34,533 nucleotides of DNA from Pirellulales bacterium. Lineage in GTDB: Bacteria > Planctomycetota > Planctomycetia > Pirellulales > Lacipirellulaceae. The stretch is from NCBI GenBank assembly GCA_025935855.1, contig JAICUM010000005.1, positions 1-34,533 on the forward strand, written 5' to 3'. Below, in pieces: positions 20,394-25,238 of this stretch. The notes under the pieces were generated by a model, which was given only the letters and a program-made list of their open reading frames with translations, had not been told where the DNA came from and searched no databases. The position numbers were made by a program, and so were the translations under genes. The first letter of the stretch is position 1; every line of letters starts with the position of its first letter.

Positions 20394-21023
20394 TTAGGCC
20401 GCCTTCGTCGGGAGTTCATAGACGGTGACGGGGATGTTGCGGGCGGAGAGTTCTTCGGCGATGAGGGGTTCGATTTGTTCCCAGCGGCCGCCGGCGAGGC
20501 CGCAGCCGATACAGGACATGTGGACGGAGGCGCTTGTCGTGAGTGCGACGTCGCCGACGCGGCGCAGGCCGGCGCGAACGGCGTCGTAACGGATGGGCGG
20601 CGTGGCTTGTTGGCTGGTCAGGCAACACAAAAAACAAACCCGAAGCGTCAGCGAGGGAATTCACCCCCGGCCCTCGCTTACGCAGCGGCTAGTGTGCGCG
20701 AACCGGTCTCGCCTACGCAGCGGCAAATATCCGTGAAGCCAACCCTCGCTTACGCATCGGGTTAGTATCCGTGCTGGCCGATCAGGTTGGCTACGGTGAT
20801 TTCCGGTTCGACCTGGACGAACTGAACTTCGCCGAGCTCGAACGGCTGTGATTCCTTGCCGGCGTGCCACGCGCGGTAACACTGCTCGGGTTCCGACCAA
20901 CGGCGGGAAATCGCGACGACGAATCCGCGTCCCCAGCCGCCGATGTCGTTGCAGATGTGGACGATGATCTTTTGCTGTGGCGTCTGGGCGAGTGGCGTCG
21001 CCGGCTTTGTAGAGGATTTCCAT
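20394..21023 (-). pseudogene. Macro-domain protein, copy 2: frameshifted and interrupted by a repeat element
   Basis: N-terminus MEILYKAGDATRPDA (ATG at 21023). A 2-nt deletion relative to copy 1 near 20974 shifts the frame. The 5' half ends at GQHG near 20773. The 3' half resumes near 20628 as SQQATPPIRYDAVRAGLRRVGDVALTTSASVHMSCIGCGLAGGRWEQIEPLIAEELSARNIPVTVYELPTKAA*. Confidence 0.78.
20637..20763. repeat. 127-bp repeat element with near-perfect 21-bp terminal inverted repeats
   Basis: AACCCGAAGCGTCAGCGAGGG (20637-20657) against CCCTCGCTTACGCATCGGGTT (20743-20763), 19/21 complementary. Two further internal copies: CCCTCGCTTACGCAGCGG (20671) and TCTCGCCTACGCAGCGG (20707). Confidence 0.8.
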
Positions 21024-21027
21024 GGCG

Positions 21028-21088
21028 CAAGTGTAGTCGTCTCGCTCCGCGAGACGAAGCCTCTCGCGGAGCGAGAGGCCTACACTTG
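21028..21088. repeat. REP-like palindromic element, copy 1 (3' flank of RAYT)
   Basis: CAAGTGTAG ... CTACACTTG outer arms enclosing hairpins CGTCTCGC-TCC-GCGAGACG and CCTCTCGC-GGA-GCGAGAGG. Confidence 0.9.
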
Positions 21089-21097
21089 ACGAGATGG

Positions 21098-21826
21098 CTA
21101 CAATTGCTTCGCGTAGTGACGGTAATCGCCGGGATGAAGCTTGGCGCGCGTTGGATTGTCGCGAATGTACTTCCGAAGGCGCTCGAATTGCTCGACGGAT
21201 CGCACCAAGTGGTCGAAATCGTCTATTTGCCAGAACCGGCCGCGGCGGCGGAGGGCGCGATTGAGCTTCGTGGCCGTATAACGCTTCCATGACTCGCACT
21301 GCTGGAGCATGGCGTCCGCATCTGGAAACGCCGCCAAAATATGGACGTGGTTTGGCATGACGACGAAATCGGTCAGATCATAGCGCTCGCCGTCGAAATG
21401 CTGCAAGCTGTCAGCAACGATTTGAGAATGCTCTGGCTTACGCAGCACACAAGCGCCATGGCACTCGTCCAGCCGGTCGTTCCAACGATTCGAGAACTTG
21501 ATCTGAAATTCCCGAAGCAGAGCGGGACCAAGCGACTTCAGAAGCTCGCGCAAGTGTAGCCGTCTCTCTCCGAGAGACGAACCCTCTCGCGGCGCGAGAG
21601 GCCTACACTTGGCGAGATGGCTCGCCTCAATTCCATGCCGCCTCAGCCACTCATCACGCTCGGCAAGCCACTCATTGAGCACCGCTTCTGGAATCGAATC
21701 CCACGTCCGCCACGTGATGAAGGCAATCGTCCCGGCCTGCGACCAGTGCGGAAGGCGCCGCTCGATGACGGCGTAGTCTTGCTTGGGATCAAAGACTTGA
21801 ATGCGCGATTGCAGAGGTTCAGACAT
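21098..21826 (-). mobile_element. REP-associated tyrosine transposase (RAYT, Y1/HUH transposase family)
   Basis: MSEPLQSRIQVFDPKQDYAVIERRLPHWSQAGTIAFITWRTWDSIPE..DECHGACVLRKPEHSQIVADSLQHFDGERYDLTDFVVMPNHVHIL (HUH motif)..LRKYIRDNP (candidate catalytic Tyr). The tracked ORF extends to a TTG at 21868 inside the flanking REP. Confidence 0.92.
21551..21611. repeat. REP-like palindromic element, copy 2, inside the RAYT coding sequence
   Basis: CAAGTGTAG-c-CGTCTCTC-TCC-GAGAGACG-aa-CCCTCTCGCGGCGCGAGAGG-CCTACACTTG. Encodes AKCRPLAPREGSSLGERRLHLRE in frame. Confidence 0.9.
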
Positions 21827-21865
21827 CGCTACAGTGTAACAAGCTCGCCGAGGCATATCGTCGCG

Positions 21866-21984
21866 CAAGTGTAGACGTCTCGCTCCGCGAGACGAATCTC
21901 AACTCGCGAAGCGAGATCTAAAAGCTGAATCGCCGCTTCGCGTGGCGAAGCGGACCCTCTCGCGGAACGAGAGGGCTACACTTG
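21866..21984. repeat. REP-like element, copy 3, expanded to about 119 bp with extra internal hairpins (5' flank of RAYT)
   Basis: Outer arms CAAGTGTAG (21866-21874) and CTACACTTG (21976-21984); inner hairpins CGTCTCGCTCCGCGAGACG, CTCGCGAAGCGAG, CCGCTTCGCGTGGCGAAGCGG, CCCTCTCGCGGAACGAGAGGG. Confidence 0.88.
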
Positions 21985-22709: not shown

Positions 22710-22801
22710 CTGAAGGACCCAAGAAGTTCTAGGCGAGGGTGGCGGGTGCGGTCACTAATCCCTCCCCTAACCCCTCCCTTCGAGGGTGGGGGAACATTGA
22801 G

Positions 22802-22884
22802 CGGAGGGCACGGGACTCGAACCCGCAACCGGTTGCCCGGCACCTGAATTCCAATCAGGCTGCTAGCCAATTCGCTTACCCTCC
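22802..22884 (-). tRNA. tRNA-Ser (anticodon GGA)
   Basis: Acceptor GGAGGGT/GCCCTCC; anticodon arm CCTGA-TTGGAAT-TCAGG; long variable arm GCCGGGCAACCGGT; T-arm GCGGGTTCGAGTCCCGT (class II tRNA). Confidence 0.93.
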
Positions 22885-25176: not shown

Positions 25177-25238
25177 CAAGTGTAGGCCTCTCGCTCCGCG
25201 AGAGGCAATCATCTCGCGGAGCGAGATGGCTACACTTG
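25177..25238. repeat. REP-like palindromic element, copy 4 (about 3.2 kb from the RAYT gene)
   Basis: CAAGTGTAG-g-CCTCTCGC-TCC-GCGAGAGG-caatc-ATCTCGC-GGA-GCGAGAT-gg-CTACACTTG. Confidence 0.9.

Follow-up and report, generated by a model that had tools for sequence, protein, structure and literature searches.

The window, that is, the whole stretch of 34,533 nucleotides that was analysed, carries a gene for a RAYT on its minus strand (Table 1). RAYTs are small enzymes that are thought to spread short hairpin repeats. To our knowledge, RAYTs and REPINs are long-lived partners, and the mechanism of REPIN mobility is still unproven. The protein has a Y1 transposase core with the HUH motif NHVH (H160 and H162) and the catalytic tyrosine Y220 within the motif YIRDNP, both of which are intact (numbering from MSEPL); the HuH–Y distance is 58 residues. 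It is matched by the Pfam model Y1_Tnp (E 2.9e-5, 24.6 bits, cut-off 23) and by the NCBIfam model REP_Tyr_transpos (E 2.2e-16), but with 60.1 bits the latter match stays below its curated cut-off of 80. The REPs on both sides of the gene also occur dispersed in the genome. The listed open reading frame (21098-21868) starts at a TTG at 21868 that sits within the upstream REP. The likely start is rather the ATG at 21826, since the N terminus that it would give (MSEPLQSR...) matches MPDSLKSR... of the homologues.

Table 1. Features of the RAYT locus and of its REPIN family in the window.
Feature	Positions	Strand	Description
RAYT / Y1 transposase coding sequence	21098..21826	minus	TAG stop included; ATG start placed by homologues
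Intragenic REPIN	21551..21611	minus	outer stem CAAGTGTAG/CTACACTTG and two 8-bp hairpins, read in the RAYT frame
REP-end remnant CAATTGTAGCCATCTCG	21090..21106	minus	near-match to CAAGTGTAG; gives the RAYT its final two codons and its TAG stop
REPIN 3' of the RAYT gene	21028..21088		61 bp; joint closest copy to the intragenic one, 56 matching positions
Expanded REPIN with several hairpins	21866..21984		119 bp; lies upstream of the RAYT, beginning about 40 bp from its start codon
Further REPIN copy, the fourth in the window	25177..25238		outside the RAYT locus
75-nt block	21548..21622		92% identical to 21025-21099; REPIN and 10 nt (CGAGATGGCT) past its edge

The element within the gene is a palindrome of 61 bp, in which an outer stem of 9 bp encloses the two hairpins with their 3-nt loops. 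Its position, its arms and its two hairpins are as given in the preliminary description, and it reads without a stop in the RAYT frame, as claimed there. It is not a single REP, as which it had been described: either end consists of a GTAG foot followed by a hairpin, meaning two REPs in opposite orientation that are repeated as a unit, i.e. a REPIN. Folded as single-stranded DNA, it reaches -22 kcal/mol (z = -6.8), and no shuffled sequence folds equally well. The exact pattern from arm to arm (CAAGTGTAG...CTACACTTG) occurs 26 times in the own genome, a draft planctomycete-like metagenome bin of 5.16 Mb in 827 contigs that is 82% complete and has its closest named relatives among Planctomycetaceae and other Planctomycetota bins, as opposed to 0 times for the reversed control; hence, the palindrome is not due to chance. 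With divergence allowed, the family comprises about 40 dispersed copies, of which 36 were extracted with both ends (26 with both ends exact). These are 60-65 bp long, most commonly 62, and have sharp ends and unrelated flanks. The family pattern was matched in 0 of the 59 relatives searched.

The intragenic copy was said to share its architecture with the copies that flank the gene. This holds for the 3' copy, which together with one copy on contig C162 is its closest relative in the genome, but not for the 5' copy, in which extra hairpins lie between the two REP ends. The intragenic copy keeps both stems and bears substitutions seen in no other copy. At one stem pair, both sides are altered, G-C having become T-A; among the 72 hairpin halves scored, this is the sole such case at that pair. 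A second copy within a coding sequence is not supported in this genome: seven other REPIN-spanning open reading frames match Pfam models, but have the repeat ahead of the domain and close to the start of the frame, and a further 13 gave no Pfam match when scanned.

The RAYT was compared with homologues from twenty loci with an identity of 41-61%, and the segment is present in none of them; one (L054) has a different insert in the same place. From the end of the helix to EFQ, the window RAYT has 49 codons. Of eight homologues compared, seven have 30, and L054, its own insert included, has 44. The net gain is thus 19 residues or 57 nt, as opposed to the 61 nt of the REPIN and to the 20-22 extra residues estimated beforehand. 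In the best local alignment, about 5-6 residues of the ancestral loop would be missing and about 25 new ones present. Because ancestral residues are missing while new ones are gained, the event would be an insertion with loss or a replacement, and its ends are uncertain since the addition is not a clean 61 nt. By this comparison, the intragenic REPIN is a derived in-frame insertion, because homologues of 41-61% identity are without it; it forms a palindromic element in a coding gene whose orthologues lack it, in the manner of the Rickettsia palindromic elements. The proposal that a cognate REP was inserted into its own RAYT with the frame kept thus stands, whereas an ancestral coding sequence that resembles a REP is rejected, as the homologues are without those residues. 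No empty site was found in the same genus; the nearest homologue has about 61% identity.

An AlphaFold2 model of the window RAYT is of moderate quality (mean pLDDT 69, pTM 0.62), since its alignment was restricted to the window protein and the proteins of related loci. In the model, the insert falls between the helices 47-63 and 85-97 and precedes the HUH strand (160-167). Among PDB folds, the best match is 4ER8, the TnpAREP of E. coli, a weak one (E 0.075) because of the model quality. It is plausible from this model that the insert forms a loop clear of the active-site motifs, its position being imprecise.

The occurrence of such inserts was surveyed in 193 distinct RAYT loci, obtained from order- and class-level searches and from two genera, by scanning each RAYT frame for matches to its own flanks. 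The upstream and downstream flanks share a repeat in 173 of the 182 loci having both, as expected for REP-flanked RAYTs. An internal copy of the own flanking REP in an intact frame is found in eight loci, or about 4% (Table 2).

Table 2. RAYT loci that carry an in-frame internal copy of their own flanking REP.
Locus	Extra residues	Position
Window RAYT	+19	shared loop
L054	+14	shared loop
L206	+44	shared loop
L203	+36	shared loop
L251	+36	shared loop
L217	+24	shared loop
L284	+41	directly before the HUH strand; repeat matches only part of the extra segment
L253	+19	between HUH and Tyr

In six of the eight carriers, the insert occupies one shared loop that follows the first helix and precedes the HUH domain. 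In the tree, L206, L203 and L251 group with L252 (support 0.99), which is too short for scoring. The remaining carriers are separate, their nearest neighbours being without an insert, with the exception of L217: its sister L185 retains a remnant of a single hairpin in that position, so that the insertion predates the split of the two. The eight carriers hence represent six independent events, four of which (the window; L054; L206/L203/L251; L217) hit the same loop with REP sequences that are unrelated to one another. In a simulation with uniform placement, a crude null, four of six events fall within 10 residues with P = 0.006. Length variants of +5 to +18 residues (e.g. L199, L196, L194, L219 and L282) were left uncounted since the flanking repeats did not match them. 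L174 was rejected as a case of an internal REP; it consists of two RAYT genes in tandem, with cores that are 98% identical and with one and the same repeat between and around them. Also uncounted is L249, whose RAYT is broken by a stop and has a long inverted repeat (L249:901-1599, arms of about 28 bp) in the same general region with no match to the flanks. It may represent a similar event that, unlike the in-frame insertions, broke the frame.

Within the window, the 3' flank is the probable source of the insert. The intragenic REPIN and the 3' copy belong to a shared block of 75 nt, in which the REPIN edge and the common 10 nt are separated by the same spacing of 1 nt in both copies; this block suggests local copying from the 3' flank. 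Because the 3' copy is a joint closest one and the 10 nt past the edge are shared as well, a local origin is likely. A local bias is also supported by low-copy REP families, which have a sizeable share of their copies in or beside the RAYT gene: one family has three sites at its RAYT locus and few elsewhere (G012), and in another, four of eight exact matches lie there (G249). We consider it probable that a flanking REPIN was copied locally into its RAYT gene and that those insertions persist which keep the frame at a tolerant loop. Herein, one of the REPINs arrayed beside the gene would have landed in the loop past the first core helix and before the HUH domain, with some 5-6 loop codons being replaced or lost alongside, giving the net +57 nt and keeping the frame. 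As the loop tolerates the insert, the transposase would remain a working protein and the lineage would survive. Several planctomycete RAYT lineages have undergone such an insertion independently with different REPs. On this reading, we infer that the copying was RAYT-mediated as well as local, that the window protein would still be active and that its insert would be mostly a passenger which is tolerated, not a means of regulation.

The clade L206/L203/L251 informs on the upkeep of such inserts. The core of these proteins has an amino-acid identity of 71-76%, while the fourfold sites are only about 32-39% identical. Judged from these near-saturated synonymous sites next to conserved amino acids, these RAYTs are under purifying selection with the insert present, and a natural linker insertion, as suggested in the preliminary description, is a possible role that is in line with this one related clade. 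In the right REP arm, six of seven codons for conserved residues are identical in all three, while the core has 27 such codons out of 128 (Fisher p = 0.0008); both arms together have eight of 13 (p = 0.0035). Nucleotide conservation of the right arm thus exceeds what the protein needs. Arms that differ within the clade (GGTTC/GAACC versus GGATC/GATCC) do so in a compensatory manner, and REPs outside the gene include both types. In all three, the right arm is close to perfect, while the left arm decays in L206 and, to a slight degree, in L203. The internal REP of L054 has TACGTGG where TACGTAGG stands in the flanking copy; read in the internal frame, the latter would give a TAG stop. Taken together, a carrier clade under purifying selection, a conserved arm and the L054 copy without the TAG indicate that RAYTs tolerate internal REP inserts and can keep them.

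Such upkeep would be expected if the intragenic REPIN were selected as a cis-acting element, such as the self-regulatory site proposed in the preliminary description, a reading that we regard as unlikely. The RAYT would bind the hairpin in its own gene or mRNA, in the gene as DNA that is single-stranded where replication or transcription opens a bubble, and would thereby limit its own expression or stay linked to its substrate. The substrate hairpin would, on this doubtful account, have been acquired repeatedly and sometimes kept at one loop as a built-in target by which the enzyme senses or limits its expression; a hairpin in the gene that keeps the specificities of enzyme and repeat co-evolving is an equally doubtful function. 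The repeated and independent hits at one site, the conserved right arm, the two stems kept in the window copy with their unique double compensatory change and the concentration of low-copy REP families at the RAYT all speak for such an element. However, only about 4% of the RAYT loci carry an internal REP, which is therefore not required, and decay is seen in the left arms of L206 and L203. Conserved arms and compensatory changes fit the maintenance of a hairpin, but they fit gene conversion with the flanks or templated correction of quasi-palindromes equally well.

Local copying into a tolerant loop could also have proceeded without RAYT catalysis, by template switching of the host replication machinery between the near-identical flanking palindromes, which we hold to be rather improbable. 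The duplicated block of 75 nt runs past the REPIN edge, and the net gain of 57 nt with codons lost resembles a replacement more than a clean insertion; both are in favour of template switching, but the other genomic copies end sharply at CAAGTGTAG/CTACACTTG with unrelated flanks, as expected of transposed units. An ancestral REP-like coding sequence or an artefact of the assembly is very improbable: the source is a draft bin in 827 contigs and a typical sequencing read exceeds a REPIN in length, but the residues are absent from homologues, the intragenic copy has private substitutions, the frame is intact on both sides of the insert and the same arrangement exists at this site in five other genomes.

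An intragenic REP in its own RAYT belongs to an already published kind of event, because in-frame REPs inside tnpAREP genes were described by Quentin et al. 2018 (PMC6006769). Therein, insertions are found in genes of subclass 2.4, generally between HuH and Y, and in some members of subclass 2.8. Subclass 2.4 is described there as abundant in Cyanobacteria and Bacteroidetes and has a median HuH–Y distance of 88 residues. As in that subclass, the window has a cognate REP in frame inside the RAYT that it flanks, tolerated as a peripheral extension. Unlike in subclass 2.4, the insert lies upstream of HuH, outside the HuH–Y interval, and with 58 residues versus the median of 88 the window RAYT does not fit this subclass. 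Subclass 2.7 is characterized by [ND]HVH, WQ, YI[LR][NQ]NP, a short core and GT[AG]G REPs (PMC6006769); compared by this motif description only, NHVH, WQ and the GTAG feet of the window RAYT and REPIN fit, whereas YIRDNP differs at one position. The inverted, GTAG-footed doublet that is dispersed and flanks a single RAYT resembles the known REPINs and RAYTs (Bertels and Rainey 2011, PMC3116915; PDB 4ER8), unlike which a REP here lies within the RAYT coding sequence. Di Nocera et al. 2013 (PMC3733652) described REPs within many genes, listed Planctomycetes as REP carriers and noted GTAG ends that often provide TAG stops to neighbouring open reading frames, just as a REP end supplies the stop of the window RAYT. 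For the Rickettsia palindromic elements and the intragenic GTAG/CGTC REPs discussed there, which are likewise in frame in genes, tolerance in flexible regions was argued; their carriers are many unrelated genes, whereas here the carrier is the presumed transposase of the repeat itself. New are the different RAYT group, the insert upstream of HuH and the recurrence at one loop; this refers to the open-licence literature, and prior reports are possible.

A loop repeatedly hit by its own REP is a natural record of insertions that marks where the protein tolerates extra sequence, and its recurrence hints at local copying near the source gene. The carriers are ready-made enzymes with their substrate in cis for direct tests of self-recognition and autoregulation.

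Two further features lie close to the RAYT locus. Short repeats (CCCTCGCTTACGCAGCGG) with a spacing of 35-37 bp occupy positions 20668-20760 and have no relation to the REPIN, and a tRNA-Ser (gga) is encoded at 22801-22884 on the minus strand.
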